A stretch of 39,941 nt of DNA from an uncultured bacterium (lineage in GTDB: Bacteria > Bacillota > Clostridia > Lachnospirales > Lachnospiraceae): the NCBI GenBank assembly GCA_947383005.1, contig CANDBT010000039.1, positions 1 through 39,941 on the forward strand. The letters run 5' to 3'. Shown piece by piece: positions 1,585-30,109 of the stretch (position 1 is its first letter; every line of letters starts with the position of its first letter). A program made the position numbers and the translations under genes. The notes under the pieces were generated by a model that ran no database searches, had not been told where the DNA came from, and saw nothing but the letters and a program-made list of their open reading frames with translations.

Positions 1585-1890
1585 ATGAATGAAACAGTCT
1601 GTCCGAAGTGCGGAGGACGGCTGAAACTTTATGATAAGGTAAAACGGATTGTACGGACAAAAGGACGTGTTACGAATCGGACTATGATCCGAAGATTGCG
1701 ATGCCCGAAATGCGGTAAGCTACATAGAGAATTGCCAGAGGATATTTTTCCATACAAGCAGTATGAAGCAGAAATTATTCGTGGAGTCTTGGAGGGGTTC
1801 ATTACTCCGGAAACGATGGGGTACGAAGATTACCCGTGCGAGATGACCATGATTCGTTGGAAAGCGCAGAAATCGCAACTGCTCTTATGA
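1585..1890 (+). CDS. Zinc-ribbon protein, DUF6431-like
   Basis: A 101-residue protein with two CPKCG knuckles (residues about 7-11 and 40-44), a strongly basic middle, and a tail ending SQLLL. The paired CxxC motifs make a nucleic-acid-binding zinc ribbon likely. It is the first rightward gene after the integrase. The Shine-Dalgarno-like GAGGTGAT lies unusually far (about 15 nt) upstream of the ATG, so the start is uncertain. The 3' end overlaps element B at 1864-1890. Confidence 0.7.
   Translation: MNETVCPKCGGRLKLYDKVKRIVRTKGRVTNRTMIRRLRCPKCGKLHRELPEDIFPYKQYEAEIIRGVLEGFITPETMGYEDYPCEMTMIRWKAQKSQLLL
1864..1890 (+). promoter_or_regulatory. Element B copy 1
   Basis: Matches the pattern GCGCA-A/T-rich, (T)CGCAA or TTACAA, CT..TTATG. 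It is followed by AAGGAGC, which can pair with GCTCTT (1881-1886), hiding the ribosome binding site. Its ATG opens a four-codon ORF (MKGA stop). Confidence 0.7.
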
Positions 1891-1906
1891 AAGGAGCGTG
1901 ATATTT

Positions 1907-2197
1907 ATGATAGATGAAAGGAAAACGAAAGCATACCACGACAGAGTTATAGCTGAAATAAGTCAGAATCACAGAAAAGTTGATTATTTTACTCGACAAG
2001 CCGAACGATGTAAAAAGATATATGCATATACAAAAAATAGAGGCGGCATATATCGGCTTATACATGGATGGGCAAAGAAGAAAAATCAATATTTTTGTAA
2101 AGAAGGAACCAAATTGGCTTTAAATACTCTGAAAGTTTGCGTTGATGAATTTGACTATCTGGATAATTACTTAAAGAATTTTAAAGAGGAGTCCTAA
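1907..2197 (+). CDS. Small basic hypothetical protein
   Basis: 96 residues, helical and Lys/Tyr-rich, no recognised domain. ATG 1907 is 9 nt after AAGGAGC; the GTG at 1898 is too close to it. The last residues (KEES) and the TAA stop are written inside the downstream hairpin, exactly as in the gene at 4350-4682. Its leader is also near-identical to that gene's leader over about 35 nt, so the two genes sit in the same cassette frame. Confidence 0.65.
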   Translation: MIDERKTKAYHDRVIAEISQNHRKVDYFTRQAERCKKIYAYTKNRGGIYRLIHGWAKKKNQYFCKEGTKLALNTLKVCVDEFDYLDNYLKNFKEES

Positions 2198-2218
2198 CAA
2201 GGGCTCTTTCTTCTTGCT
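2189..2218 (+). terminator. Cassette hairpin 1 (terminator-like)
   Basis: GAGTCCT (2189-2195), loop AACA, AGGGCTC (2200-2206), then TTTCTTCTT. The 7-bp stem with a pyrimidine tail looks like an intrinsic terminator. The stop codon of the preceding gene is within the stem and loop. Confidence 0.65.
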
Positions 2219-2294
2219 CTATATTTCCACCGAGGTTGTTTTTACTAATAGCCGTCCTTAACCTAGAATAGCCGTAGAAAGGAGGTAGACGCAG

Positions 2295-2540
2295 ATGGAA
2301 GAATTTGCAAGCGGTTCTGTTCCTGTCTCCGTAGCGGCTAAAGTATATGGAAAAGATGCTTCCTGGGTTCGAGCCGGCATCATATCCGGGTGGTTGCCAA
2401 TCGGGAAAGCTACAAGGAACGGAAAGCTGATTACGGACATTGAGGAGATGAATAGCAAGTATGGACGTATCAACTTCTATATCTCTCCCAAATTGCTGTT
2501 CGAGGAAACGGGTTATGTGTGGAAAGGAGAACGAAAATGA
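2295..2540 (+). CDS. Excisionase-like / MerR-type HTH DNA-binding protein
   Basis: 81 residues. The stretch SVAAKVYGKDASWVRAGI has the look of a winged-helix/MerR-like helix-turn-helix, followed by YISPKLLFEETG. Small proteins of this kind in Firmicutes phages are usually DNA-binding and sometimes excisionases. The position near the integrase fits an Xis role, but this is inference. The start has GAAAGGAGG upstream. The stop overlaps the next start (ATGA). Confidence 0.65.
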   Translation: MEEFASGSVPVSVAAKVYGKDASWVRAGIISGWLPIGKATRNGKLITDIEEMNSKYGRINFYISPKLLFEETGYVWKGERK

Positions 2541-2905
2541 GTACAACAATACGGCCAGAGTTGTCGGAGAAAAATCCGTACTGGATTGAGAAGCATCGGT
2601 ACTATGAACTGAAACACTTCTGTCTTCAGTATCCAATCTGGAAGAAAGCAAGGGCGGCACTAAGCAGTTTGAGCCAGCGACCGATTGATGCGGTTAAGCT
2701 TACCGGAAGCATTAGCGATCCAACCGTCAAGTGTGTGGAGGCGAGAGAATTCTATTCCGAACGGATGGGGTTGATTGAGAAAGCAGCTGCAGAAACGGAT
2801 GCAGAGTTGGGGGATTATATTTTGAAAGCCGTTACCCAGGGCATCTCTTATGACCATCTGAGAGCGAGAGTAAACGTGCCTTGCTGTAAGGATGTCTACT
2901 ACTAA
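2537..2905 (+). CDS. Conserved phage protein, apparently cut by an in-frame TAA
   Basis: 122 residues, starting in ATGA overlap with the previous gene and preceded by AAAGGAG. From memory, homologous phage proteins have the pattern KNPYWIxKHRYYELKHFCLQYP early and PCCKDxYYxxYRRFFWLL at the end. Here the reading ends at CCKDVYY with TAA (2903-2905), but the same frame continues LYRRFFWILNRIRK to a TGA at 2948-2950. So the C-terminal helix seems cut off by one nonsense codon. The function is unknown; an RNA polymerase/transcription-factor-like helical role is only a guess. Confidence 0.7.
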   Translation: MSTTIRPELSEKNPYWIEKHRYYELKHFCLQYPIWKKARAALSSLSQRPIDAVKLTGSISDPTVKCVEAREFYSERMGLIEKAAAETDAELGDYILKAVTQGISYDHLRARVNVPCCKDVYY

Positions 2906-2960
2906 TTGTACAGGCGCTTCTTCTGGATATTGAATCGGATAAGAAAGTGAGGACTGAGCT

Positions 2961-3170
2961 ATGAAAATTGTAGAGAAAGCCATTAAGCAGACCTATCGCT
3001 TTAGTTGTCCGGTATGTGGCAGTCGGCTGGAGGGTGAAAGTCAGGAGTTCGTTGATATCGGCGGAAAGGTCAACAAGTTTTTTTGCCCGGTTTGCAGAGA
3101 GGATCGTTATATTCCCTGGTCCAACCTTAGGAAGAATATTACATACGAGAAATCAAAGGGTGCGCAATAA
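2961..3170 (+). CDS. Small zinc-ribbon protein
   Basis: 69 residues with CPVCG (residues about 16-20) and CPVCR (about 42-46), a four-Cys zinc ribbon separated by about 20 residues. A weak site, GAGGACTGAGCT, precedes the ATG. Likely nucleic-acid or protein binding; no more specific role can be read. Confidence 0.65.
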   Translation: MKIVEKAIKQTYRFSCPVCGSRLEGESQEFVDIGGKVNKFFCPVCREDRYIPWSNLRKNITYEKSKGAQ

Positions 3171-3187
3171 TTACAATCTCCTTTATG
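3162..3187 (+). promoter_or_regulatory. Element B copy 2
   Basis: GCGCA, then TTACAA, then CCTTTATGA. CTCCTTT (3178-3184) can pair perfectly with AAAGGAG (3188-3194) across a 3-nt ATG loop, masking the binding site of the gene at 3204. Its ATG opens MKGGHHYA, whose stop overlaps that gene's start. Confidence 0.7.
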
Positions 3188-3203
3188 AAAGGAGGGCATC
3201 ATT

Positions 3204-3407
3204 ATGCTTAATAAAAATGTTATTAAAAACACGGTTTTTGGAATCGGAGGATTAGCATTATCTATATACGCATTAAGAAGCTATGGCTACCAGAAAGAAT
3301 GCCAGGGTTATATCAGCGGATGTAAGGTTATGCTGGAGGCACAAACCGGAAACAAAACGGCTGAAGAAAAAGACAAGCTTATTAAAGAGAATGAACCTAC
3401 GAAATAA
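3204..3407 (+). CDS. Small single-pass membrane protein
   Basis: 67 residues. A hydrophobic N-terminal segment (about residues 8-27, VFGIGGLALSIYALRSYGY) is followed by a charged tail. AAAGGAGGG lies upstream. No family recognised. It is the first of a run of small membrane proteins extending to about 14.9 kb. Confidence 0.65.
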   Translation: MLNKNVIKNTVFGIGGLALSIYALRSYGYQKECQGYISGCKVMLEAQTGNKTAEEKDKLIKENEPTK

Positions 3408-3417
3408 AAAGTGGAGA

Positions 3418-3446
3418 GAGTCCTAACAAGGGCTCTTTTCTTTTAT
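3418..3446 (+). terminator. Cassette hairpin 2 (terminator-like)
   Basis: GAGTCCT, loop AACA, AGGGCTC (3418-3435), followed by TTTTCTTTT. Here the hairpin lies just after, not inside, the preceding stop codon. Confidence 0.65.
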
Positions 3447-3544
3447 ATTTTCAGAACGAAGGTAACGAAAAAACATGCTATTTTGGTATTTGGAAAATTC
3501 CCCGGGTAAGAAATTCGGGAGAACTTTTCGGAAAGGAGAAAGAA

Positions 3545-3763
3545 GTGCTGATAGTGGTTGGAGTAATTGTGGGGTTTTTGCTTGGTGTTGCTGCGACTCT
3601 GCATGTTTTGAGAAAGGACACCATCGGGAATTTGGTGATTGCGGATGATCCGGAGGACGGTTCCTATATGTTCCTTGAAATTTCAAGATTGGACATCGAA
3701 AGACTGAGGGCGCAACCGATGGTAAAACTCAATGTTGTTAATAAAGGCAGAACGCATAAATAA
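3545..3763 (+). CDS. Small membrane protein, GTG start
   Basis: 72 residues beginning at GTG 3545, which is 8 nt after AAAGGAG; no ATG is available. Residues 2-20 form a transmembrane helix (LIVVGVIVGFLLGVAATL). The soluble part carries GNLVIADDPEDGSYMFLEIS, a pattern I associate with small phage proteins of unknown function. The N-terminus probably anchors it in the host membrane. Confidence 0.7.
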   Translation: MLIVVGVIVGFLLGVAATLHVLRKDTIGNLVIADDPEDGSYMFLEISRLDIERLRAQPMVKLNVVNKGRTHK

Positions 3764-3779
3764 CACTCTCTGTTATGGA
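3752..3779 (+). promoter_or_regulatory. Element B copy 3
   Basis: ACGCATAAATAACA then CTCTGTTATGGA. The embedded ATG (3775) opens a 15-codon ORF whose TGA overlaps the start of the gene at 3815. Confidence 0.6.
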
Positions 3780-3814
3780 ACATAAAAATTCATCATTGAA
3801 AGGAGAAGAAAACG

Positions 3815-4249
3815 ATGGATGAACAAATTAGACAGGCGTTGGCAAATGAGATTTTAAGTCAACTTAATGGTTTGAGTAATCTTGAACCGGGAAGCAAAGA
3901 GCAGCAGACGGCAGTGGAAAATGTCACCAAACTCTATAGATTGGGATTGGAGGATGTAAAAGCCGACACTGATTACGATGAAAAGTTATATCGTAGGGAT
4001 GTAGATGCACAGCACGAACAGGATGAGCTGGATCGGCAGGCCCGCGAGGAACAGTTCAAGAAAGATCAGTTGGCGGAACAGACTAAAGACCGATATTTCA
4101 AACTTGGAGTAGAGGTGGCAGGAATCGTATTACCGCTGATTTTCTATGCGACCTGGATGAAGAGAGGATTCAAATTCGAGGAGACGGGAACTTATACTTC
4201 AACGACATTCAGAGGATTGTTCAATCGATTCAGACCGACAAAGAAGTGA
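3815..4249 (+). CDS. Coiled-coil protein with C-terminal membrane segment
   Basis: 144 residues. Residues about 40-95 are very charged and helical (repeated DExLDRQAREEQFKKDQ-like pattern). A hydrophobic helix follows (LGVEVAGIVLPLIFYATWM, about 97-116), then a basic tail (RFRPTKK). A tail-anchored topology is likely. GAAAGGAG lies before the ATG. Unknown function; a neighbour of other membrane proteins. Confidence 0.7.
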   Translation: MDEQIRQALANEILSQLNGLSNLEPGSKEQQTAVENVTKLYRLGLEDVKADTDYDEKLYRRDVDAQHEQDELDRQAREEQFKKDQLAEQTKDRYFKLGVEVAGIVLPLIFYATWMKRGFKFEETGTYTSTTFRGLFNRFRPTKK

Positions 4250-4269
4250 ATTTGGAAACAAATAAGCGG

Positions 4270-4306
4270 AGAGTTCGTGCGAAACGCATGGACTCTTCGT
4301 TTTTCT
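4270..4306 (+). terminator. Cassette hairpin 3 (terminator-like)
   Basis: A 12-bp stem, AGAGTTCGTGCG (4270-4281) with CGCATGGACTCT (4285-4296), loop AAA, followed by a TTTTTC tract. Same layout as the GAGTCCT hairpins but different sequence. Confidence 0.75.
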
Positions 4307-4307
4307 T

Positions 4308-4333
4308 CGCATAGATAACAACTGCTCTTATGA
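4308..4333 (+). promoter_or_regulatory. Element B copy 4
   Basis: CGCATAGATAACAA then CTGCTCTTATGA. From 4316 onward the leader repeats the leader at 1873-1909 almost exactly, including the SD-masking stem and the MKGA mini-ORF. Confidence 0.7.
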
Positions 4334-4349
4334 AAGGAGCGTGATATTT

Positions 4350-4682
4350 ATGAAAAGCATGTATTCGCAAGTGTTTGATTCTAAATGTCCATTATGGGAT
4401 AAAAATCAGAAGTTTAATTTATTACTTCTACAATCAAAACAGACCTATTTTAACGATTTATTAAAGATGCGGGGCTATGTATTCCTCAGAGATATTTATG
4501 AGGATCTCGGTTTCCCTATAACATTAAAGACGTTATTTGTAGGATGGGTTTATGATTTGGAGAACCCTATTGGAGACAACTTTATTGATTTTGGGATAAC
4601 TACAAAGGGCGAAGAACCGAACATTGAGCTGGATTTTAATGTTGATGGAATTATTACAAACCGATTTAAAGAGGAGTCCTAA
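4350..4682 (+). CDS. Stand-alone copy of the DUF6353-type C-terminal module
   Basis: 110 residues. RGYVFLRDIYEDLGF, VGWVYDLENPIGDN and ELDFNVDGIITN align well with the last 90 residues of the protein at 11589-12509 (HLTLNDVYDMLGF, VGWIYDLDHPNGDN, AIDFNVDGNIYN). It therefore looks like that family without its membrane-spanning N-terminal part. ATG 4350 sits 9 nt after AAGGAGC. It ends KEES with the stop inside the downstream hairpin. Confidence 0.75.
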   Translation: MKSMYSQVFDSKCPLWDKNQKFNLLLLQSKQTYFNDLLKMRGYVFLRDIYEDLGFPITLKTLFVGWVYDLENPIGDNFIDFGITTKGEEPNIELDFNVDGIITNRFKEES

Positions 4683-4702
4683 CAAGGGCTCTTTCTTCTT
4701 GC
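4674..4702 (+). terminator. Cassette hairpin 4 (terminator-like)
   Basis: GAGTCCT (4674-4680), AACA, AGGGCTC (4685-4691), TTTCTTCTT. Identical to hairpin 1 over more than 30 nt including the preceding TTTAAAGAG. Confidence 0.65.
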
Positions 4703-4717
4703 AGTAGGGAGCGAGAT

Positions 4718-5077
4718 ATGCGATACCACTATGAAAAACCGACGATTTATCTCTCCATGTATGGAGAACGTTATATTTGTGAGCATCCGGTCTATAATAG
4801 CTGCACTTTGTTCAAGATTGGCGAAAAAGGACTGGCTGTTATTCAGCAGCGTTTTGACGCCGAGACTAAGAGTACCTGGTGGAGCGAGGTGGATTCGTGG
4901 ATTACAGATGACTTATATTTGCATCCGAAGTTCAAGGAATACTTTGAAAACAGAGCAGGCGATTGTGTGGATGAACTTTATCCAACGGTTACAGTAAGAC
5001 AAATCATGTGGGCTTTGAAGATGAAGCCGATACCAAGAGAACGTTGGGAAACGGTATTCGACCGGCGTGATATTTAG
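4718..5077 (+). CDS. Conserved phage hypothetical protein
   Basis: 119 residues, aromatic-rich and acidic, no transmembrane segment. It contains STWWSEVDSWI and YPTVTVRQIMWALKMKPIPRERW. I have seen this pattern in phage genomes but know no function. GGGAGCGAG precedes the ATG. Its 3' end runs into element B copy 5. Confidence 0.65.
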   Translation: MRYHYEKPTIYLSMYGERYICEHPVYNSCTLFKIGEKGLAVIQQRFDAETKSTWWSEVDSWITDDLYLHPKFKEYFENRAGDCVDELYPTVTVRQIMWALKMKPIPRERWETVFDRRDI

Positions 5078-5102
5078 CGGAAATTACAACTCCTTTTATG
5101 GA
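5077..5102 (+). promoter_or_regulatory. Element B copy 5
   Basis: GCGGAAATTACAA then CTCCTTTTATGGA. CTCCTTT (5090-5096) is perfectly complementary to AAAGGAG (5119-5125) of the next gene. Confidence 0.7.
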
Positions 5103-5131
5103 AAGCTACGTATTTACGAAAGGAGAAAAGA

Positions 5132-5287
5132 ATGAGCAAAACGGAGAGGCATTTAAGCAACAAAATACGCATATTTGAAGATATGTTATTACGGAGTAAA
5201 AATGGGTACGAAATTGAAACGCTCAGAAATGAACTGACAAAAATGCGTATATCATTACAGAAATTACAGTATGCGAGAGAGTCCTAA
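5132..5287 (+). CDS. Small coiled-coil protein
   Basis: 51 residues (MSKTERHLSNKIRIF at the start), with heptad-like Leu/Ile spacing in the second half. AAAGGAG lies 6 nt before the ATG. It ends RES with the TAA stop inside the hairpin at 5279-5296, the same cassette design as its neighbours. No family recognised. Confidence 0.6.
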   Translation: MSKTERHLSNKIRIFEDMLLRSKNGYEIETLRNELTKMRISLQKLQYARES

Positions 5288-5305
5288 CAAGGGCTCTTTC
5301 TCTTT
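5279..5305 (+). terminator. Cassette hairpin 5 (terminator-like)
   Basis: GAGTCCT, AACA, AGGGCTC (5279-5296), then TTTCTCTTT. Confidence 0.65.
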
Positions 5306-5332
5306 ACGCTTGAAATACAACTGCCTTTATGA
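5306..5332 (+). promoter_or_regulatory. Element B copy 6
   Basis: ACGCTTGAAATACAA then CTGCCTTTATGA, directly after hairpin 5. Its ATG opens a 15-codon ORF ending within the gene at 5364. Confidence 0.65.
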
Positions 5333-5363
5333 AAACCAACGATTTGGAAAGGAGAAAAGGAGT

Positions 5364-5579
5364 ATGGACGAAATGAAAATCAACTCAAAATTCTTGAGGA
5401 ACTTGATTGCTAAGTTTGTAAAAAGAGAGGTAAAGAAAAAGGCAGGATACGAAGTGGATATTCAGCTGAATGAATTTACGGCAACGGTTACGGACGGAAC
5501 GGCTCATGTTCACTTGAATGTAGATGCGGAATTGGGTAAAGACGAACTTACAAAGCTTCTGGCAGCGATTGGTTTGTAA
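5364..5579 (+). CDS. Small basic/mixed-charge hypothetical protein
   Basis: 71 residues: a Lys-rich helix (KFVKREVKKKAGYEV) followed by short strands (DIQLNEFTATVTDG, HVHLNVDAEL) and a C-terminal helix. The start follows GGAAAGGAGAAAAGGAGT. A basic helix plus small sheet would suit a membrane- or nucleic-acid-associated role, but none is identified. Confidence 0.65.
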   Translation: MDEMKINSKFLRNLIAKFVKREVKKKAGYEVDIQLNEFTATVTDGTAHVHLNVDAELGKDELTKLLAAIGL

Positions 5580-5585
5580 AGAGTT

Positions 5586-5618
5586 GAGGGATCGTGGAGA
5601 CACGGTCTCTTCGCTTTT
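5586..5618 (+). terminator. Cassette hairpin 6 (terminator-like)
   Basis: GAGGGATCGTG (5586-5596), loop GAGA, CACGGTCTCTTC (5601-5612), followed by GCTTTT. The 11-bp stem includes several G-T pairs. Confidence 0.6.
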
Positions 5619-5622
5619 ACAT

Positions 5623-5650
5623 ACGCAAAAATCGCAAGGGCTTTTATGGA
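5623..5650 (+). promoter_or_regulatory. Element B copy 7
   Basis: ACGCAAAAATCGCAA then GGGCTTTTATGGA. The embedded ATG opens only MEK before TAA. Confidence 0.65.
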
Positions 5651-5680
5651 AAAATAAACTAATTTCAGGAGGGTACAATT

Positions 5681-5869
5681 ATGATGAAAGCATTAAAGGA
5701 ATACAACGAAATGGTTATGAGACCGTCATGGAAATGGCTGAAGAAGCACTGGAAAGGATATTCGGTGTTGCTGGTAATTTCGATGATTGTTCCGTACCTT
5801 TGGTTCTACTGGAGCGACATCACGGAGTACATCAAGAGCAAGTTTAAGAACCACGAAGAGGAGTCCTAA
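5681..5869 (+). CDS. Small single-pass membrane protein
   Basis: 62 residues. A Trp/Lys-rich amphipathic start (RPSWKWLKKHWKGY) leads into a transmembrane helix (SVLLVISMIVPYLWFYW, about residues 27-45) and a charged tail ending HEEES, whose stop lies in the hairpin at 5861-5878. GGAGGG precedes the ATG. Unknown role; small amphipathic membrane proteins in phages can be holin-like, but there is no partner evidence. Confidence 0.65.
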   Translation: MMKALKEYNEMVMRPSWKWLKKHWKGYSVLLVISMIVPYLWFYWSDITEYIKSKFKNHEEES

Positions 5870-5887
5870 CAAGGGCTCTTTCTTCTT
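5861..5887 (+). terminator. Cassette hairpin 7 (terminator-like)
   Basis: GAGTCCT, AACA, AGGGCTC (5861-5878), TTTCTTCTT, immediately followed by element B copy 8. Confidence 0.65.
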
Positions 5888-5915
5888 GCGCAAAATTTAC
5901 AAGGACTATTATGGA
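5888..5915 (+). promoter_or_regulatory. Element B copy 8
   Basis: GCGCAAAATTTACAA then GGACTATTATGGA. The tRNA-like sequence begins at its right edge, so here the element precedes an RNA rather than a protein gene. Confidence 0.7.
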
Positions 5916-5916
5916 G

Positions 5917-5985
5917 AAACAGTTAGCTCAGTGGTGGAGCGCCGCTGAAATGCGGAGGTCGAGGGTTCGAGTCCCTCACTGCTTC
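5917..5985 (+). tRNA. tRNA-like RNA with shortened anticodon arm
   Basis: The D arm (GCTC, loop AGTGGTG, GAGC) and T arm (GAGGG, loop TTCGAGT, CCCTC) are canonical, and AAACAGT pairs with ACTGCTT as a 7-bp acceptor with one A-C mismatch. The anticodon arm is odd: CCGC and GCGG close a 6-nt loop TGAAAT, about 3 nt shorter than normal, so no anticodon can be assigned safely (GAA would be the nearest reading). Pairing of the acceptor extends about 4 bp further outward (from 5913 to 5988). No CCA is encoded. It is either a decayed tRNA or a tRNA mimic. Confidence 0.55.
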
Positions 5986-5996
5986 TCTTAAGTTTT

Positions 5997-6026
5997 GGAG
6001 TCTTGACAGGGGCTCCTAGTTTTTTA
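5997..6026 (+). terminator. Terminator after the tRNA-like RNA
   Basis: GGAGTCTT (5997-6004), loop GACA, GGGGCTCC (6009-6016), then a run of six T ending at 6026. A variant of the GAGTCCT hairpin. Confidence 0.7.
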
Positions 6027-6043
6027 TCGAAAGGAGAAAAAGA

Positions 6044-6994
6044 ATGAAAGGAATCAGAGGCAGTACAGAATTTGAGAAGCAGTTTATTGACGTGTTCGAG
6101 CAGTTGTGCAGGAGGCACCATTCGTGGAAAGTGTGGCAGGACTTTGTGAATATGTCTGCATGTGCCATCGCTAATGCTGTGGATAAGAGACCGGCGGTCT
6201 GGAAGCTGAGGGAGGATTCATACATGGAGACGATTAAAAGCTATTCCAAGGATGAACTCAATCTTATCTCTGAGCTGCTCAGCATTACCACGTTAGCTTT
6301 AGACGAGAATCCGGCTCAGGACTTTCTTGGAAAGTTCTACATGCAGCTCGACTTTGGAAGCGGATGGCATGGCCAGTTCTTTACGCCGTGGCATGTTGCT
6401 GAGCTTATGGCAAAGCTACAGTTAGGAGATGAGGCAAAAGACCAGATTGCGTCCGAAGATTATATTTCGGTTTGTGACTCCTGCTGTGGAGCGGGATGTA
6501 TGCTTATGGCGTTTGCAAAGGTCTGTAAAGATGATATGGATATCAACTATCAGCGGTCGGTACTTTTTGTCGGGCAGGATATTGATGAAGTCGTTGCAAA
6601 GATGTGTTACATCCAAATCAGCCTTTTGGGATGCCCTGGATATGTAGTTGTAGGGAATTCCCTTTCGGAACCTGTATGTGGCACCACAATAGAACCAAAC
6701 TATAAGAAGCCTGAAAACATCTGGTTTACGCCATTATATTTTACCGATGTGTGGACCTTACGCAGGATAAAATCCTGGAACGCAGAAGTACGAAAGCTGG
6801 AAGAGACGGTGAAAGAAGAAAGAGAATCTCCTAAATCCGAGGAGCCCTCTAAAAGCATAACACCGGAGATTGTGCGGTCTGTTCCAACAGTACATAAACC
6901 GCCGCAAATGCCGATCATGAAGAAATCAGAGGGCAAGAAGAAGCCGTTTTCATGGAAAGAGTTTTTTACAGTGAAAGGAAAGGGTAAAAAATGA
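6044..6994 (+). CDS. HsdM-like N6-adenine methyltransferase homologue, probably lacking catalytic motif IV
   Basis: 316 residues. GQFFTPWHVAELM is the lead-in typical of type I M-subunit methyltransferases. DSCCGAGCMLMAFAK is the SAM-binding motif I, and GQDIDEVVAKMCYIQISLLG the following acidic motif. Where an NPPY/NPPF catalytic motif is expected I see VVVGNSLSEP and no NPP, so methylation of DNA is doubtful. The last 90 residues are a charged, Pro-containing tail (KSEEPSKSITPEIV, SEGKKKPFSWKEFF). Such phage proteins may act as accessory or anti-restriction factors, but that is inference. It overlaps the next gene by 4 nt (ATGA). Confidence 0.75.
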   Translation: MKGIRGSTEFEKQFIDVFEQLCRRHHSWKVWQDFVNMSACAIANAVDKRPAVWKLREDSYMETIKSYSKDELNLISELLSITTLALDENPAQDFLGKFYMQLDFGSGWHGQFFTPWHVAELMAKLQLGDEAKDQIASEDYISVCDSCCGAGCMLMAFAKVCKDDMDINYQRSVLFVGQDIDEVVAKMCYIQISLLGCPGYVVVGNSLSEPVCGTTIEPNYKKPENIWFTPLYFTDVWTLRRIKSWNAEVRKLEETVKEERESPKSEEPSKSITPEIVRSVPTVHKPPQMPIMKKSEGKKKPFSWKEFFTVKGKGKK

Positions 6995-7761
6995 ATTTGA
7001 AGCAAAAAATCTATAGAATGTGTGGTAAGTCGAGGTTATATTTAAAACGTTCCTCTCCCACCATTTTGTGCTGTGTGGCTGCCGTTGGCGTAGTCGGGAC
7101 AGCTGTAGCCGCCGTCAAGGTGACTCCTAAAGCTATGAAGTTGTTGGAAGACGCTACGGACGAAAAAGGAACAGATTTAAGCAGGACGGAGATTGTCCTC
7201 ACTGTTGCTCATTTGTATATTCCGGCGGCTGCTATTGGAGCTGGCACCATCTTCTGTATTTTCGGAGCAAACGCTCTTAACAAACAGCATCAGGCAAGAT
7301 TGATGAGCGCTTACGCTTTGCTTAGAAACTATCATAAGGAATATCGTGATAAGTTGATCGAACTGCATGGCGAAGAAGCAGATGCCGAAATCAGAAATGC
7401 CATGATACGGGAACATTGCAATTTCCATCCGCTTGATTCGGATGTTCCGGATGGTAAGGTTATATTTTACGATGAAATATCCGGGGAATCCATTATGCGG
7501 TATGAGCGGGAAGTGATAGATGCTGAGTATCATTTCAACCGCAATTTTACAATGAGAGGTTATGCATTCCTTAACGAGTTCTACGAATTTCTGGGATTGC
7601 CTATGACCGAATACGGAGGAACCGTTGGGTGGTCCATGTCTTCTGGAATCATGTGGGTAGATTTTGAACATCGGCTGATTGATAATGACGATGGGGGAAC
7701 TGCCTGTTATTCCATTGACATGGTATTTCCACCGGAAGTCCTGGAAGAATGGGAATGCTGA
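6991..7761 (+). CDS. DUF6353-like membrane protein, paralogue 1
   Basis: 256 residues. Two hydrophobic segments (about 24-45, TILCCVAAVGVVGTAVAAV, and about 68-90, LYIPAAAIGAGTIFCIFGA) flank a short soluble loop. The rest is soluble and ends with the shared module GYAFLNEFYEFLGL, GGTVGWSM. SRLYLKRSSPTILCCVAAVG matches KRSPEILVAVGVVG in the paralogues at 8943 and 11589. Function unknown; the family appears confined to phages and prophages as far as I know. Confidence 0.75.
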   Translation: MNLKQKIYRMCGKSRLYLKRSSPTILCCVAAVGVVGTAVAAVKVTPKAMKLLEDATDEKGTDLSRTEIVLTVAHLYIPAAAIGAGTIFCIFGANALNKQHQARLMSAYALLRNYHKEYRDKLIELHGEEADAEIRNAMIREHCNFHPLDSDVPDGKVIFYDEISGESIMRYEREVIDAEYHFNRNFTMRGYAFLNEFYEFLGLPMTEYGGTVGWSMSSGIMWVDFEHRLIDNDDGGTACYSIDMVFPPEVLEEWEC

Positions 7762-7766
7762 CAACT

Positions 7767-7793
7767 CCGCAAAATTTGCAACCACTATTATGA
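7767..7793 (+). promoter_or_regulatory. Element B copy 9
   Basis: CCGCAAAATTTGCAA then CCACTATTATGA. Its ATG (7790) opens a 7-codon ORF whose TGA overlaps the start of the next gene (ATGA at 7810). Confidence 0.7.
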
Positions 7794-7809
7794 AAGGAGG
7801 AGATGCTTT

Positions 7810-7974
7810 ATGACTGGAGCGGTAATTAAAGGAATCGGATTGGCGGCGACTGTAATTGGGATGGGGACATCACTCATCACCGATTGGGTCAACGAAAAGA
7901 AGATGGATGAAAAGATCGAAGAAAAAGTGAATGAGGCATTGGCCAGGAAAGAACACGAAGAAGAGGAGTCCTGA
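7810..7974 (+). CDS. Small membrane protein with charged tail
   Basis: 54 residues. A Gly-rich hydrophobic start (GAVIKGIGLAATVIGMGTSL) is followed by a Lys/Glu-rich coiled tail ending HEEEES, with the TGA inside the hairpin at 7966-7984. AAAGGAGGAG lies upstream. Too short for family assignment. Confidence 0.65.
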   Translation: MTGAVIKGIGLAATVIGMGTSLITDWVNEKKMDEKIEEKVNEALARKEHEEEES

Positions 7975-7995
7975 ACAAGGGCTCTTTCTTCTTGC
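7966..7995 (+). terminator. Cassette hairpin 8 (terminator-like)
   Basis: GAGTCCT (7966-7972), loop GAACA, AGGGCTC (7978-7984), TTTCTTCTT. The one-base loop insertion turns the usual TAA stop into TGA. Confidence 0.65.
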
Positions 7996-8021
7996 ACACA
8001 ATGCGCAGAGGAGGCAGCGCA

Positions 8022-8318
8022 ATGAGCAACGATTATATTTTGTCCGTGATTCGGGAATATGCGGATGAATACCTGAAAGAACCGGGATGGCGTATGTCAA
8101 AAGAATGGTTCAAGCAGGTTTCGTATAGCCGGTGGGCGGTGGGTGAAATATTGAAAAGCATTGAAGAATCCCGATTCACGCCGCCCATCATGGTTGTTGA
8201 GGATTTCATCCGTAAAATGGATGACTTCTCATGCCGGAACAAAAAGACCAGTTTTATATTTTCAGTCGCACATGACATGGCAGAGAATATTTTGGACGTT
8301 CTGATTGCCATGAAATGA
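8022..8318 (+). CDS. Conserved phage hypothetical protein
   Basis: 98 residues starting after GAGGAGGCAGCGC. Helical and soluble, with YSRWAVGEIL, PPIMVVEDFIRKMDDFSCR and a C-terminal helix (SVAHDMAENILDVLIAM). No domain is recognised. Read as a single soluble protein between two membrane-protein genes. Confidence 0.6.
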   Translation: MSNDYILSVIREYADEYLKEPGWRMSKEWFKQVSYSRWAVGEILKSIEESRFTPPIMVVEDFIRKMDDFSCRNKKTSFIFSVAHDMAENILDVLIAMK

Positions 8319-8339
8319 CATATCGAAAGGAGAAAAATG

Positions 8340-8894
8340 ATGAAAGTATTAAGAAAACAGGAAGTATCTATTCAGACAACAGGCGAGTTCAAGGTCGGAG
8401 ATCAGATTCAGATCGGAAAGTATACCGCTACCTGCCAGAAAGTCACCAGGAAAGGGGCACTCTTCCTTTTGGACCAGTATCTGGATGAGGCCTTTAAGAT
8501 GAATCGCGAGAATACGAACGAGGGCGGCTATGAGGCGAGCGACCTGCGTAAAGAGCTGCAGGAGAACAGTGTTCTGGAAATCTTCGATTCTGTCCGGGAA
8601 ATGATGGTTCCGTTCAAGAATGGCGATTTGCTCCGTATTCCGTATGCGGAGGAATTCTTCGGTGATGTCGATTCTTATGAACCGAGCGGAAAGAAACAGT
8701 GGCCGCTTATGGAAGACCGCAAGAATCGAATCGCCATCCGAGAAGGAGAAGCTTATGAGTGGGGCTGGCTGCAGAACAAGCTGAAGTCTTCTGGGACGGC
8801 TTTCGCTCGTGTGAACGGCCATGGCGGTCCGGCCTTCCACGGCGCGTCGCTCTCTTTTGGGGTTCGTCCGGTTCTCCGCTTGCGGTTAGGCTAA
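8340..8894 (+). CDS. DUF6273-type / C-type-lectin-like protein
   Basis: 184 residues; ATG 8340 is better spaced from AAAGGAG than ATG 8337. The end of the protein (EWGWLQNKL, FARVNGHGG, GASLSFGVRPVLRL) matches the lectin-like fold of DUF6273/formylglycine-enzyme-like domains, where ..GVRPV.. is the signature. Variable proteins of diversity-generating retroelements use this fold, with the variable patch at the same C-terminal place. The last 130 bp are clearly more GC-rich than the rest, and a perfect palindrome follows the stop. No reverse transcriptase or template repeat is seen in the window. Confidence 0.65.
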   Translation: MKVLRKQEVSIQTTGEFKVGDQIQIGKYTATCQKVTRKGALFLLDQYLDEAFKMNRENTNEGGYEASDLRKELQENSVLEIFDSVREMMVPFKNGDLLRIPYAEEFFGDVDSYEPSGKKQWPLMEDRKNRIAIREGEAYEWGWLQNKLKSSGTAFARVNGHGGPAFHGASLSFGVRPVLRLRLG

Positions 8895-8897
8895 TCT

Positions 8898-8924
8898 CCG
8901 CCCCTTGTGGGCGGTTTATATTTT
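8898..8924 (+). terminator. Perfect 6-bp GC stem-loop with T-rich tail
   Basis: CCGCCC (8898-8903), loop CTTGT, GGGCGG (8909-8914), then TTTATATTTT. It fits an intrinsic terminator. In retroelement target genes a hairpin in this place assists retrohoming, hence the note on the preceding gene. Confidence 0.7.
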
Positions 8925-8942
8925 GAAAGGAGAAGCGATGAA

Positions 8943-9767: not shown

Positions 9768-9769
9768 CT

Positions 9770-9797
9770 GCGCAAAAATTACAATGCCTTTAATGGA
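9770..9797 (+). promoter_or_regulatory. Element B copy 10
   Basis: GCGCAAAAATTACAA then TGCCTTTAATGGA, one of the copies closest to consensus. Its ATG (9793) opens a 17-codon ORF that ends inside the gene at 9836. Confidence 0.7.
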
Positions 9798-9835
9798 AGA
9801 ATCCACACTATTTCATAAACGAAAGGAGAACAATT

Positions 9836-10105
9836 ATGGAACCTAATGAAGTAATGGAAAACGAGGAAGTTATCGAGACGGCTACGGAGGAGATCGTGAA
9901 AGCGAGTTCTGGATGCGGGTTTAAGATGGCGGCGGGTTTCGGCTTGGGCATTCTTGCAGGTATGGCTATCTGTAAGCTGGCAAAGCCGGTAATCGCCAAG
10001 ATCAAAGCGCGGAAAGCAAAGCCCATGATCACTACGGCGGCGGACGATTTTGATGACGACCACTTTGACGACGAAGAGGAGTCCGAAGAAGAATCCGAGG
10101 AATGA
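9836..10105 (+). CDS. Small membrane protein with acidic ends
   Basis: 89 residues. Acidic N-terminus (EPNEVMENEEVIETATEE), Gly-rich transmembrane helix (MAAGFGLGILAGMAICKLA, about 31-50), basic stretch (KIKARKAK) and a very acidic tail (DDFDDDHFDDEEESEEES). The charge layout predicts a single-pass protein. AAAGGAG is 7 nt before the ATG. No family recognised. Confidence 0.7.
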   Translation: MEPNEVMENEEVIETATEEIVKASSGCGFKMAAGFGLGILAGMAICKLAKPVIAKIKARKAKPMITTAADDFDDDHFDDEEESEEESEE

Positions 10106-10125
10106 TATTCGGTGGATCAGACGAG

Positions 10126-23949: not shown

Positions 23950-25191
23950 ATGGATTTTAAAATTATTGCAGTAGATTTCGATGGAACTCTGTGCGAGAAC
24001 AAGTGGCCGGAAATTGGAGAGCCGAATAAGGAACTGATTGCTTATCTGAAAGAGCGTCAGACAGCGGGTGATAAGTTGATTCTATGGACTTGCCGCGTTG
24101 GAGAGATACTTGACAATGCGGTTGCCTGGTCGGCTAAGTGGGGACTTATATTTGATGCTGTCAACGAAAACCTGCCAGAGGTTCTGGAATGGATGGGTGG
24201 CGATACCAGAAAGATATTTGCCAACGAGTATATCGATGATCGAAATACTTCTTTTCAGTTGGATTTTAAAAATGGCGCAGAGATGTCTCAGTCAGAACGG
24301 GCAGAATTATTTGGCTGTTTGGTCGATATTGTCGAGGATTGGCTGGGAGAAAAAGGGATCACGACAAATGATATTCCCAATGCAGAGCGTGAAGATTCGG
24401 AAGATGCTGCTATCATCTATGGCAATGACTATGATTATCTTGTGGATCAGTTTGCCGCTACACTGGGGATTTCTCGGTATTGTACGGGGAAAGAAAAACC
24501 TGAAATGCAATCATGGGCTGAAAGAGAAATAGAAATTGCCTGTAAACACGAAAGGGGCGATTCGGGAAGTAAAGATGGAGAATGGGACTACGGCTGTGCC
24601 TGCTATGAAAGTGCGTTAAAGGCTTATAAGAGCCTCATGGGAGACGGTCATACTGGTTTTAGCATCGGTATGACTAAGTACATTTTGAATCGTCTTATTG
24701 AACATAAACCACTTACGCCCATTGAGGACAAGGAAGACGTTTGGAATGATATTTCCGATATAAGTGGCGGATGTGTCAATTACCAATGCAAGAGGATGAG
24801 TTCTCTGTTCAAGTATGTGTATCCGGATGGAACTATAAAGTACCGGGATGTCAATCGATTCTACGGGGTAAACCTCGATAATCCGAACGGCTCCTATCAT
24901 AGTGGCCTTATCGACAGGGTTATGGAGGAATTATATCCTATTCGTATGCCGTACTTTCCTACCAAATCATTCAAAGTAGTTTGTGAAGAATTCTTGACAG
25001 ATCGGAAGAATGGGGACTTTGATACCGTTGGAATGTTATATTTTATTGATCCGGACGGAGTACGCGTGGAACTGAATCGATACTTTAAAGAAGGAGCGGA
25101 TGATTTTGTCGAGATTGATAAAGACGAGTATGAAGAACGGCGGGTTATGTATCAGAAACTTTTGGAGGAAATGAACGATGATAAAAATTGA
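23950..25191 (+). CDS. HAD-family hydrolase with a phage-specific C-terminal extension
   Basis: 413 residues after GAGGAGG. N-terminal about 110 residues: VDFDGTLCEN (nucleophile motif DxD), LWTCR and IDDR give a short HAD-like domain as in small phosphatases/nucleotidases. The rest contains a charged region and DGHTGFSIGMTKYILNRLIE plus YPDGTIKYRDVNRFYGVNLD, also seen in other phage proteins of unknown role. With DUF4406 nearby, nucleotide metabolism is a reasonable guess. Its end overlaps the next gene. Confidence 0.75.
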   Translation: MDFKIIAVDFDGTLCENKWPEIGEPNKELIAYLKERQTAGDKLILWTCRVGEILDNAVAWSAKWGLIFDAVNENLPEVLEWMGGDTRKIFANEYIDDRNTSFQLDFKNGAEMSQSERAELFGCLVDIVEDWLGEKGITTNDIPNAEREDSEDAAIIYGNDYDYLVDQFAATLGISRYCTGKEKPEMQSWAEREIEIACKHERGDSGSKDGEWDYGCACYESALKAYKSLMGDGHTGFSIGMTKYILNRLIEHKPLTPIEDKEDVWNDISDISGGCVNYQCKRMSSLFKYVYPDGTIKYRDVNRFYGVNLDNPNGSYHSGLIDRVMEELYPIRMPYFPTKSFKVVCEEFLTDRKNGDFDTVGMLYFIDPDGVRVELNRYFKEGADDFVEIDKDEYEERRVMYQKLLEEMNDDKN

Positions 25192-27983: not shown

Positions 27984-28004
27984 GAGCGAGAGAAAGGAGG
28001 TTTT

Positions 28005-28187
28005 ATGAAAAAGAAGAACACATGGTCCGAGATTTATGAAAGCTTTCAGTCAATCTATCCGAATTTGAAGAAAGAAGCCGTCGGATATTGTCCGCATGGT
28101 TACATGTCGATTCTGGTATATTTTCCGGATGGGCTGCGTATGGTATATAATGAGGTGGAAAGACGAGCCAGGTTTGTCACGGCATGA
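28005..28187 (+). CDS. Small hypothetical protein
   Basis: 60 residues after GAAAGGAGG. MKKKNTWSEIYESFQSIYPN then EAVGYCPHGYMSILVYFPDG and a basic end. The pattern suggests a small alpha/beta protein known from phages. It follows the iteron region and ends just before the structured RNA. Confidence 0.65.
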   Translation: MKKKNTWSEIYESFQSIYPNLKKEAVGYCPHGYMSILVYFPDGLRMVYNEVERRARFVTA

Positions 28188-28227
28188 GCAGAATTTTGAG
28201 AATGATATTTCTTTTTTGCCGTGTATG

Positions 28228-28236
28228 TGGTATACT
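28228..28236 (+). promoter_or_regulatory. Extended -10 promoter of the structured RNA
   Basis: TGG then TATACT gives the extended -10 form TGnTATACT. No good -35 is evident, as usual for this class. The first paired base of the RNA stem begins 6 nt downstream. Confidence 0.6.
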
Positions 28237-28237
28237 G

Positions 28238-28396
28238 GAACTGCGACACAACTTTAAAACATTTTGGTAATAGGGACAATGCTTTGTTAAAAAGCGTTAT
28301 CTCTCTTTACTTATACCCTATTACCAGAGTTAAGATTGTGTCGCAACAATGAGAGAGCCGCTTTTTAGTGCGTCTCTTCGGTGGGGCGCACTTTTT
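28238..28396 (+). ncRNA. Structured non-coding RNA with its own promoter and terminator
   Basis: TGCGACACAA (28242-28251) pairs perfectly with TTGTGTCGCA (28336-28345), CTT pairs with AAG next to it, and TGGTAATAGGG (28265-28275) pairs perfectly with CCCTATTACCA (28316-28326), forming an about 105-nt rod. The apical loop contains a small hairpin (GCTTT, AAAGC). A separate GC-rich hairpin follows (GTGCGTCTC with GGGGCGCAC, 28368-28391) ending in TTTTT, a strong intrinsic terminator. TCTCTC in the apical loop could pair with GAGAGA (28352-28357), allowing a competing fold. There is no start codon with a ribosome binding site inside. It matches no RNA family I know. Confidence 0.7.
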
Positions 28397-28397
28397 A
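28367..28397 (+). terminator. Terminator of the structured RNA
   Basis: A 9-bp stem closed by a TTCG-type loop and followed by a T run (28392-28396). Confidence 0.8.
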
Positions 28398-28425
28398 TAT
28401 TGTGCCTATATTGGACAACCTCGTG

Positions 28426-28448
28426 AAAAACACAAGCTCTGTTATGGA
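28426..28448 (+). promoter_or_regulatory. Element B copy 11 (weak)
   Basis: AAAAACACAAG then CTCTGTTATGGA, the right half fits well but the GCGC start is missing. Its ATG (28445) opens a 40-codon reading that overlaps the start of the next gene. Confidence 0.45.
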
Positions 28449-28544
28449 GAACGGTATTTCCTTTACTCATACCAGTAATTTGGGCGAGAGTTGTGTGGCA
28501 GCAATGCGGAAGTACTCGTTCTCTTTATTTTTGGAGGTAGCAAG

Positions 28545-29588
28545 ATGGACAATAATGTTGCCGTAAGTGGAAACTTTGAGATTATACCTTGTGATAAAAT
28601 GACAGATATTGAGAATAAGCCCGGTATCAAAAAACTGGAGCTTACTTCATCGCAAAAAATCCAGATGGGAGGACTAATGCAACAGCTTCCTGCAGTCGTG
28701 GCGGCTAATGCTTTAAGCGATATGTATATGGTTCGATTTCCTGCCGGAATACCAAATGCATTGACTCCCCTAAAGCAAGGCGGATTCAGTACTATGGTCA
28801 AGGGCGAGAATGGGCGGATTGCAGGAACTGCTTCTTTATATTCTGTTGAAGCACAGGCAGCCGTTATTGGAGCGTTCAATGCTATGTCGATAGTTTCCGG
28901 CCAGTACTTCCTTGCACAGATTAACAGCGAACTTAAAACGATGAACCAGAACATTGACAAAATTCTGGAGTTCCTTTACGGTGATAAGAAAGCGGAACTT
29001 ATATCCGAAGTTAGCTTTGTGAAATCAGCCTACCAAAATTATAGTTCGATTATGGAGCATGAGCACCAGCGGTTTGCCACTCTTGTCAGTTTACAGGAAG
29101 CAAAGAAAGTTGCAATGAAAGATATTGAATTTTATATGTCGGATCTGGATTCAACTGTCAATACTAAAAGCGGTTCCGATATTGTAACTTGGATTTACAA
29201 GATATTTCAGATTAAGGACTGCTTAGAGCTTTCTATACAGCTTTATTCCATGAGCAGCCTGTTGGAAATCTATTATTCACAGAATTATGATACCAATTAT
29301 ATTTCAAATGTTGAAGAAGAATCCGTTACTTACATCGGTAAATGTGAGAAACGCATGTTAAGCAGTTTCAGTAAATTGAGCACGCATATTCAGAACTTTA
29401 AAGAGGGTCCTCTAAAAAAGGTCGATAAGCCGGCTCTTGAAAAGAAAGTTAATCTGGTGGTGGATTCATTCAGCAGAGGTACAGAATCTGAGATGCTCAA
29501 ATCGATTCGTTCTGTTCTGCACGCTTCGGAAGCAAAAGCAGAGTACTATGTGAACAGCAATGGCGATTTATATTTGAGAACTGCATAA
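28545..29588 (+). CDS. Unrecognised 347-residue protein beside the structured RNA
   Basis: ATG follows TTGGAGG by 8 nt. N-terminal region: LTSSQKIQMGGLMQQLPAVV, MVRFPAGIPNALTPLKQGG and IAGTASLYSVEAQAAVIG, a Gly/Ala-rich part that may be membrane-associating or amyloid-like. The remainder is long helices (SELKTMNQNIDKILEFLYG, DCLELSIQLYSMSSLLEIYY). The gene is more AT-rich than neighbouring replication genes and stands as its own unit. Similar patterns occur in bacterial chromosomes as I recall, so a cargo/moron gene is possible. Function unknown. Confidence 0.7.
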   Translation: MDNNVAVSGNFEIIPCDKMTDIENKPGIKKLELTSSQKIQMGGLMQQLPAVVAANALSDMYMVRFPAGIPNALTPLKQGGFSTMVKGENGRIAGTASLYSVEAQAAVIGAFNAMSIVSGQYFLAQINSELKTMNQNIDKILEFLYGDKKAELISEVSFVKSAYQNYSSIMEHEHQRFATLVSLQEAKKVAMKDIEFYMSDLDSTVNTKSGSDIVTWIYKIFQIKDCLELSIQLYSMSSLLEIYYSQNYDTNYISNVEEESVTYIGKCEKRMLSSFSKLSTHIQNFKEGPLKKVDKPALEKKVNLVVDSFSRGTESEMLKSIRSVLHASEAKAEYYVNSNGDLYLRTA

Positions 29589-29606
29589 AGATGGTACATG
29601 CCCTAC

Positions 29607-29631
29607 GTGCATTTTACAAGGTGTTTTATGA
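29607..29631 (+). promoter_or_regulatory. Element B copy 12
   Basis: GTGCATTTTACAAG then GTGTTTTATGA, followed by AAGGAG. It opens the mini-ORF at 29628. Confidence 0.6.
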
Positions 29632-29705
29632 AAGGAGAGGATAAAAAGCTTTTTGTCTCTTCGGTTCAATTTGGAAGTGGGGCAGCCCTATTTCCTAATT
29701 ACTGA
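29628..29705 (+). CDS. Leader mini-ORF opened by element B
   Basis: 25 residues: MKGEDKKLFVSSVQFGSGAA then LFPNY. The stop lies inside the ribosome binding region of the next gene, so its translation could influence that gene. No ribosome binding site of its own is visible. Perhaps not a real product; listed because the same arrangement recurs at all element B copies. Confidence 0.3.
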   Translation: MKGEDKKLFVSSVQFGSGAALFPNY

Positions 29706-29718
29706 AAGGAGATAAAAA

Positions 29719-30027
29719 ATGACAAGAAAAAAAGGCGAGTATGAAGTTATTTATGGAGGCAGCAGTAAAAAATTCTCAGATCCAACAGAAAGATATGAAG
29801 ACATCTATGATGAGGATGGAGATGCCGTTATTTGCGATTTATGCGGCGGAGAAATGAAATGGAAAGATAATGAATGTGTGTGCCCTGAATGCGGGCAGCG
29901 GATGGATCGAGAAACATTTTTCAATTATATCGGAGCGGAGCCTCCTGGTCCGGAATGTACCGGATGCGAAAATATTTATCCGGGATGCGTAATCTGTCCT
30001 TATGGTTACGTCGAGGATGAAGAATAA
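29719..30027 (+). CDS. Multi-cysteine zinc-binding protein
   Basis: 102 residues after AAAGGAG. Cys pairs at CDLCGGEM and CPECGQRM form one zinc ribbon, and ECTGCENIYPGCVICPYG supplies a further Cys cluster. The first 40 residues are charged (RKKGEYEVIYGGSSKKFSDP). Possibly an RNA- or DNA-binding adaptor. It lies in a cassette bounded by element B copies 12 and 13. Confidence 0.65.
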   Translation: MTRKKGEYEVIYGGSSKKFSDPTERYEDIYDEDGDAVICDLCGGEMKWKDNECVCPECGQRMDRETFFNYIGAEPPGPECTGCENIYPGCVICPYGYVEDEE

Positions 30028-30041
30028 CATACTACGGATTT

Positions 30042-30069
30042 GAGTCGCATACAGCGGCTCTTTTCTTTT
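30042..30069 (+). terminator. Cassette hairpin 9 (terminator-like)
   Basis: GAGTCGC (30042-30048), loop ATACA, GCGGCTC (30054-30060), then TTTTCTTTT. A compensatory variant of the GAGTCCT/AGGGCTC stem at 2-8 kb: both arms changed, pairing kept. Confidence 0.75.
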
Positions 30070-30082
30070 GCTATTTTTTTGC

Positions 30083-30109
30083 CCGCGAAAAAAACATACC
30101 CTTTTATGA
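30083..30109 (+). promoter_or_regulatory. Element B copy 13
   Basis: CCGCGAAAAAAACATA then CCCTTTTATGA, again just after a cassette hairpin. Its ATG opens MKREE then TAA. Confidence 0.55.

Follow-up and report, generated by a model that had tools for sequence, protein, structure and literature searches.

Thermus phage P23-45 encodes two single-chain RNA polymerases, the virion enzyme gp96 and the non-virion enzyme gp64. For each of them, 5'-end sequencing together with chromatin immunoprecipitation sequencing established a link to a promoter motif (PMC10770324). The non-virion polymerase of phage phiKZ starts transcription at the G of TATG (PMC4666361). YonO of phage SPbeta produces late transcripts from one start, and the promoter sequence that it recognizes is, according to its authors, still to be determined (PMC5467207). 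Here we describe element B, a gapless 27-bp sequence (CGCR-N-AAWWN-RCAW-N3-CTN-TTATGRA) that occurs 13 times, always on the plus strand, in a stretch of DNA from an uncultured bacterium of the family Lachnospiraceae. This stretch, called the window below, is the whole of a 39,941-nt contig (CANDBT010000039.1) of a 4.99-Mb genome, and it contains part of a prophage. We propose, at a probability of roughly 0.8, that element B is the promoter of a phage-encoded single-chain RNA polymerase of the phrog_4291 family, whose gene lies at 31022 to 33703. This reading was already put forward by the original prediction, which was made from the letters of the window, and it is now supported at the level of sequence comparison by a two-way co-occurrence of element and polymerase, by the presence of both across two phyla, by the way they have diverged together in Lactococcus phages, and by how tRNA-like genes and Shine-Dalgarno (SD)-like sequences are placed next to the element. 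No promoter for the phrog_4291 family was found in the excerpts of open-access literature searched, PMC13313380 and PMC5513430 included; subscription papers were outside the scope of that search.

Element B and its polymerase appear to be a case of the same kind as P23-45, in a different polymerase family. As in P23-45, a phage single-chain two-barrel polymerase goes with a conserved motif of its own before several starts (PMC10770324), and a fold search with the window polymerase lands near gp62 of phage P74-26, a relative of gp64. However, the polymerase family and the motif differ from those of P23-45, and element B occurs across two bacterial phyla and precedes tRNA-like genes as well. The starts of P23-45 were mapped by ONT-cappable-seq, whereas those of element B are predicted from sequence geometry (PMC10770324). 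The late promoters of phiKZ share with element B a TATG, unlike a -10 box, with the G as the start (here a predicted one). However, the phiKZ enzyme is built of several subunits, and TATG is all that its late promoters have in common, whereas the present system would have one chain and two more boxes upstream (PMC4666361). The TTATG or TAATG core is retained, and the comparison with phiKZ rests on the geometry of the adjoining tRNA-like genes and SD sequences. The window polymerase, like YonO, is a single chain of about 100 kDa with a D-x-DGD motif (one in YonO). Unlike YonO with its late transcripts, it is accompanied by element copies in the non-structural region and before the polymerase operon (PMC5467207).

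The 13 copies were aligned by anchoring on TTATG. No gaps were required, so the "2 to 4 variable bases" of the original prediction are a fixed stretch of 3. The copies lie at 1865 to 1891, 3163 to 3189, 3753 to 3779, 4308 to 4334, 5076 to 5102, 5307 to 5333, 5624 to 5650, 5889 to 5915, 7768 to 7794, 9771 to 9797 (a TAATG variant), 28422 to 28448, 29606 to 29632, and 30084 to 30110. In leave-one-out scoring with a position weight matrix they reached 18.6 to 34.1. For comparison, the whole window was simulated 100 times with a second-order Markov model and the matrix from all 13 copies was run over both strands; the best chance score had a median of 11.9, a 95th percentile of 18.2, and a maximum of 22.9. 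Twelve copies exceed that maximum, and the copy at 29606, the lowest at 18.6, exceeds only the 95th percentile; beyond the 13, the highest score in the window is 12.7. All 13 plus-strand copies given by the original prediction are present, and as a set they are far above chance. The copy near 28426 had been called weak, but it scores 26.5, and the weakest is the one at 29606.

Two other parts of that description held in part. The element was said to be intergenic, but four copies (1865, 3163, 3753, and 5076) share bases with the 3' end of the preceding called open reading frame (ORF). Each copy was said to precede a gene, and the gene behind the copy at 5889 is a tRNA-like gene that follows immediately (5916 to 5987), not a protein gene. 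An SD-like AAAGGAG begins directly after the TTATG of the copy at 1865. The copy at 5307 is directly 3' of a hairpin seen in the sequence, the copy at 5624 is 9 nt past a terminator-like hairpin (5594 to 5614), the copy at 28422 is upstream of a 365-residue ORF (28491 to 29588), and the copy at 30084 is upstream of the polymerase operon. A repeated hairpin like AGGAGTCCTAACAAGGGCTCTTTC closes several small gene units in this region (2186 to 2209, 3413 to 3440, about 4672, 5280, 5862, and 7964), and two such hairpins were listed by the scanner as terminator-like.

In the whole 5-Mb genome, the element pattern with at most one mismatch has 35 matches and a reversed control pattern has 13. Thirteen of the 35 are in the window contig, 14 are on another contig, C9, and 8 are scattered. 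Contig C9 carries a second, related prophage with a related polymerase, 66% identical in DNA. Element B is a property of one type of phage and not of the host.

The operon behind the copy at 30084 consists of three plus-strand genes, for an endonuclease (phrog_93; 30170 to 30490), an exonuclease (phrog_3953; 30462 to 31019), and the polymerase (31022 to 33703). The 893-residue polymerase matches phrog_4291 across residues 4 to 893 (E value of 0). Its GADFDGD motif (residues 510 to 516), with the catalytic aspartate triad, is unchanged in all 42 aligned polymerase proteins, and its C terminus matches sigma-70 region 4 and other helix-turn-helix (HTH) models. An AlphaFold2 model from the 42-row alignment had a mean predicted local distance difference test (pLDDT) score of 77.2 and a predicted template modeling (pTM) score of 0.64. 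In a Foldseek search of the PDB with this model, QDE-1 chains came out on top (7y7r_B; E value of 5e-8, probability of 1.00), followed by P74-26 gp62 (8f5m; E value of 9e-7) and plant RDR2. TM-scores to QDE-1 and gp62 were about 0.3 and the root mean square deviations were large; therefore, the fold likeness is partial. A sequence search of the PDB with the protein found no polymerase. Public records label members of the family as RNA-dependent RNA polymerase, HTH protein, or hypothetical protein, and 251 of 50,697 sequenced phage records encode one, which gives a rough base rate.

An N-terminal stretch of the polymerase, HYG..R.SGRYPWGSG (window 31052 to 31100), is nearly invariant (present in 15 of 15 sources, some of which show small changes), and model confidence is low there. 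No similar stretch was found in any other ORF examined there, so the motif is no proof that the polymerase is packaged in the virion. Such packaging is possible; the sole hint of it is a note in the record of phage ReqiPepy6 that names the relative in phage 1706 a "structural protein."

We then asked how closely element and polymerase occur together. Viral contigs were scanned with the 893-residue protein, and 80 of 212 loci were kept. Element B was present at a score of at least 18 in 71 of these 80 loci, never on the minus strand at that score, and eight of the nine loci that have no copy have less than 1 kb of DNA upstream of the polymerase. We also trained a matrix on nothing but the 13 copies of the window and counted sites that scored at least 14 within 2.5 kb; by this measure, a site lay upstream of the polymerase in 64 of the 65 viral loci that have at least 1.4 kb of upstream DNA (median distance, 918 bp).

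Bacterial genomes gave the same pairing. We sampled 200 genomes from the family of the host and tested all of them for both element and polymerase. Twelve had a phrog_4291 match at an E value of 0.001, five of them full length and seven weak (about 20 bits). At least three matches to the element pattern were found in exactly the five genomes with a full-length polymerase; 13 others had one match, and 182 had none. A sample of 392 genomes from the order, which overlaps the first and in which the polymerase was tested only in genomes with matches, contained seven genomes with at least five matches. The polymerase is encoded in all seven, in G458 as two fragments. A sample of 397 genomes from the family added two more (G594 and G640), both with the polymerase. 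With all genome scans pooled, each of the 13 genomes with at least three pattern matches encodes the polymerase. In the reverse test, viral contigs were picked by the element pattern alone, and every contig of 40 kb or longer among the matches listed was examined, 37 in total. The polymerase is encoded in 32 of the 37, cut at the contig end in some. Because seven of the 37 were already known from the polymerase scan, the independent count is 25 of 30.

The element is also found in named phages. Stretches of 11 phages that encode the polymerase were scanned at a score of 13, with a matrix that excluded a phage's own sites where these had been used in training. The scan called 7 sites in HotFries, 13 in FP_oengus, 11 in Secretariat, 8 in Cheesy, 16 in ReqiPepy6, 9 in DizzyRudy, 8 in Eevee, 12 in DrGrey, 5 in Qui (50 kb of 114 kb), 2 in Lactococcus phage P078, and 0 in Lactococcus phage 1706, with none on the minus strand. 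The chance expectation was 0 to 0.2 sites per stretch (20 simulations; single best chance score, 20.0). One called site, at 36364 of FP_oengus, ends in TTTTC within a gene and is probably a chance match. A common register was found in 9 of the 11 phages, whose hosts belong to seven genera of the Firmicutes and Actinobacteria, and the actinophage form is TCGCANNAATTACACGCCCTATAATGAG. In seven of the nine phages from hosts other than Lactococcus, a called site is upstream of the endonuclease gene of the polymerase operon. Under the original prediction, relatives that keep the polymerase should keep the element as well, and nine of the 11 named phages do; in Lactococcus phages 1706 and P078, the element is present in diverged form only.

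These two Lactococcus phages also have the most diverged polymerases, 42 to 44% identical to that of the window in the alignment, compared with 49 to 54% for the other named phages. In P078, a form TTTTACA-N4-CTATAATGA was found in the same register, at eight sites by matrix rank and two by regular expression. In 1706, the eight best sites are all on the plus strand and have the form CACA..TTTTACA-N4-CTATAGTA, again in the same register; they score 8 to 13 individually, each below the chance maximum of 17.1, where the general matrix had given none. In this lower-score look at two phages, the left box had changed along with the enzyme and the core had not. This is how a promoter and its polymerase should behave, as far as two phages can indicate.

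The position of the predicted start comes from the bases around the core. We aligned 190 non-redundant Firmicutes sites with a score of at least 20, a set partly selected for conservation that includes a few solitary host copies. With the first T of TTATG as 0, conservation reaches 96 to 100% of these sites for each of CGC at -20 to -18, CA at -9 and -8, T at 0, and A-T-G at 2 to 4, and conserved bases cover 25 bp. An SD-like sequence begins at the G or the next base in 44 of the 190 sites, and 70 have none within 40 nt. Directly behind one copy there is a tRNA-like gene in nine phages, namely the window prophage, FP_oengus, ReqiPepy6, P078, the C9 prophage, and the prophages of genomes G046, G149, G130, and G532. 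Seven of the nine genes are called by ARAGORN, and those of C9 and P078 were judged by eye. The one in the window, on the plus strand and with an abnormal anticodon arm, starts 3 nt (ARAGORN) or 4 nt (Rfam) past the G of TTATG. By ARAGORN, the tRNA starts 1 nt after the G in FP_oengus, 2 nt in G046, 3 nt in the window and G149, 4 nt in G130 and G532, and 8 nt in ReqiPepy6. Because the tRNA adjoins the element, a transcript that holds the whole tRNA should have its start at most one base past the G; an earlier start would also be compatible. The simplest reading is that the G of TTATG is the first base of the RNA.

The anticodon arms of the nine tRNA-like genes, compared by eye, vary wildly, with 6-nt loops, a UUCG tetraloop, an insertion, and a TTA anticodon. 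Instead of a tRNA that takes part in decoding, the product may be a mimic or a decoy of one. In some elements, pairing is possible between the right half and the SD sequence that follows (window 1880 to 1898, 4323 to 4341, and 3178 to 3194). Read-through RNA from upstream could hide the SD in this way, and RNA begun at the element would not.

We suggest the following mechanism. The polymerase would read a contiguous stretch of about 25 bp as three boxes on a fixed register, with CGC at -24 to -22, RCA at -14 to -12, and a third box, CT-N-TTATG, that surrounds the start, where the G is most simply taken as the first RNA base. The sigma-region-4-like HTH at the C terminus of the polymerase, possibly with weaker N-terminal HTHs, would replace a sigma factor. 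Should the enzyme need a further factor, the small ORF that is annotated immediately after the polymerase gene in the named phages is a candidate. The many copies would give small gene clusters and one tRNA-like gene a start of their own. Transcription of the polymerase's own operon would begin at the copy at 30084 and, by read-through, could extend into the packaging and head genes. In the fetched stretches of the named phages, copies lie among small non-structural genes and before the polymerase operon, and, the doubtful site of FP_oengus apart, head and tail genes had no called copy within them.

Several observations weigh against a promoter of the phage polymerase. Among the matches listed, 5 of the 37 contigs picked by the element had no polymerase match, although these may be fragments. 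Genome G600 has the polymerase and only a single copy, which is located behind the gene. Genome G208 (assembly 89% complete) has one pattern match and three matrix sites in a row with no polymerase match, and solitary copies also occur in genomes without such a match. Before the polymerase operon, the best site of Curtobacterium phage Eevee scores only 12.3, and DizzyRudy has none directly there. No element was found in the 49 kb of SPbeta examined, yonO included, and an hhalign comparison of the polymerase with YonO gave no homology (probability of 0.2 over 17 columns). The one SPbeta site above 20 looks like a terminator and was rejected as an element. Because the polymerase operon has its own copy of the element, a first supply of polymerase would be needed, from the virion or from leaky host transcription. 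Co-occurrence could also come from linkage, the polymerase and the element being inherited together by one phage lineage; the divergence in Lactococcus phages and the spread over two phyla make linkage alone less probable. Finally, the right box of the actinophage form, CTATAATG, includes a perfect TATAAT, and therefore a host sigma factor could use those copies.

This last point leads to the alternative that survives best, that element B is a promoter of the host RNA polymerase working with a phage-encoded or host alternative sigma factor. The two-box appearance of the element, the actinophage TATAAT, and the sigma-region-4-like HTH in a phage protein would all suit it. However, the would-be -11 base varies in the Firmicutes copies (A in 30%), and a start about 7 nt past the -10 box would fall inside six of the Firmicutes tRNAs. 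The conserved RCA box sits at the position of a sigma-70 spacer, and in the window's own genome the matches outside the two prophages are at chance level. We consider this explanation improbable. In its simplest form, a sigma-70 promoter with TTGACA and TATAAT 16 to 18 nt apart, it was rejected for the Firmicutes copies, because no scanner match overlaps a copy and the base before TTATG varies; the lack of a sigma-70 fit noted in the original prediction was borne out in a simple scan of 1500 to 10500 and 28000 to 30500, where 0 promoter-like matches overlap an element. The actinophage form may still be read as a sigma-70 promoter.

A somewhat less likely explanation is that a master repressor or activator of the phage binds element B as its operator and shuts prophage promoters from such dispersed sites. 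SPbeta has operators of this type, the SPBRE sites of the SPBRE / MrpR system, which are dispersed and are said to shut prophage promoters. Element B resembles them in its many dispersed, phage-specific copies before genes, but it has no dyad and adjoins tRNA-like genes. Inspection of 190 plus 66 aligned sites revealed no dyad symmetry such as a symmetrical binding site has. Some copies have a terminator-like hairpin close on one side and a tRNA-like gene or SD sequence close on the other, which leaves little room for another promoter, and no sigma-70-like match overlaps a copy. The sites have a single orientation relative to genes in the scanned loci, and a diverged form is retained in phage 1706, which is termed virulent in a reference title. 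Least probable of all, and by our estimate hardly tenable, is an RNA leader or processing signal that is not a promoter, for although CTCCTTT-like bases can pair with AAAGGAG across TTATG in some copies (scanner: 1880, 4323, and 3194 on the minus strand), the conservation of bases spans 25 bp, and the tRNA-like gene 1 to 4 nt after the G in six Firmicutes phages leaves a leader no room, which is also why the regulator-bound leader offered as the second option in the original prediction fits worse than the polymerase promoter.

Copies of the proposed polymerase promoter also occur outside phages, in front of host genes. Twelve polymerase-free genomes (G148, G038, G519, G102, G026, G156, G487, G500, G579, G630, G645, and G649) have a solitary copy with a matrix score of about 26 or more outside known phage DNA. 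Excluded from this set were phage pieces (G165, G091, and G208) and copies judged by eye to lie within a gene (G433 and G447), and lower-scoring matches were taken as chance. In G148, the copy stands behind a type III methyltransferase, a restriction enzyme, and an AbiU-like protein (E value of 1e-39) and before a 377-residue Zn-ribbon ORF; a ThsB match in this set probably belongs to an ORF further on. A 391-residue ORF is behind the copy in G038, where an McrC-like gene precedes the copy, in Mediterraneibacter agrestimuris, and in G519, and thus in at least two genera. The two named loci of this gene that have the element are 99 to 100% identical, and four of six homologues with 60 to 76% identity have none. 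A 341-residue part of the window protein at 28491 to 29588, which likewise has an element upstream, is a distant relative of the 391-residue ORF (26% identity over 141 residues; E value of 8e-10). A CBASS cyclase and a 4TM effector lie 5 to 7 kb from the copy in G026, and in G500, G630, and G649 the gene after the copy resembles, by eye, a small MerR-type regulator.

We compared PADLOC matches at an E value of 1e-10 around 10 solitary copies with those around 10 chance pattern matches, using the best 25 of 107 and the best 25 of 74 families. Only canonical systems were counted, because PADLOC models also match ordinary helicases and transporters. Among these best-ranked families, canonical defense was near three of the 10 solitary copies and one of the 10 chance matches, a difference that is not significant. 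We did not count a DRT-helicase family match that belongs to an unassigned member of the solitary set, and two of the ten controls (G290 and G411) score 22 to 23 with the matrix. A link of solitary copies to defense genes is suggestive at most. The boldest reading is that bacteria captured the phage promoter as an infection sensor, in which solitary copies would stay silent until a phage polymerase arrives and would then switch on host defense or alarm genes. We keep this idea only as a doubtful one, since the defense link is not significant.

Other features of the window prophage include a tyrosine integrase (209 to 1486, minus strand), a primase-polymerase (14916 to 18929), many small genes, and one helicase-like protein. 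A protein with a Tad3 domain (type I Thoeris inhibitor) at 23950 to 25191 is likely an anti-defense gene product. A second repeated sequence, TTATATTT, occurs 39 times on the plus strand and 0 times on the minus strand between 448 and 34119 (about 2.6 expected), and TTATATT occurs there 54 to 0. It is found in genes and gaps, even on the plus strand within the minus-strand integrase gene. The bias recurs in related prophages (loci L102 to L106), with 33 to 0 in L104 and 23 to 0 in L105. In actinophages TTATATTT is rare, and it is one-sided in some (TTATATT, 11 to 0 in L086). It is a polar phage motif.

The proposed promoter and its predicted start base make the activity of the polymerase directly testable with one template and one protein, and the solitary host copies make infection-triggered host genes a testable question. 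If the proposal is true, element B and the phrog_4291 polymerase would be a new promoter-polymerase pair, and phages of both Firmicutes and Actinobacteria would be served by a single-chain two-barrel enzyme that carries its own sigma-like HTH.

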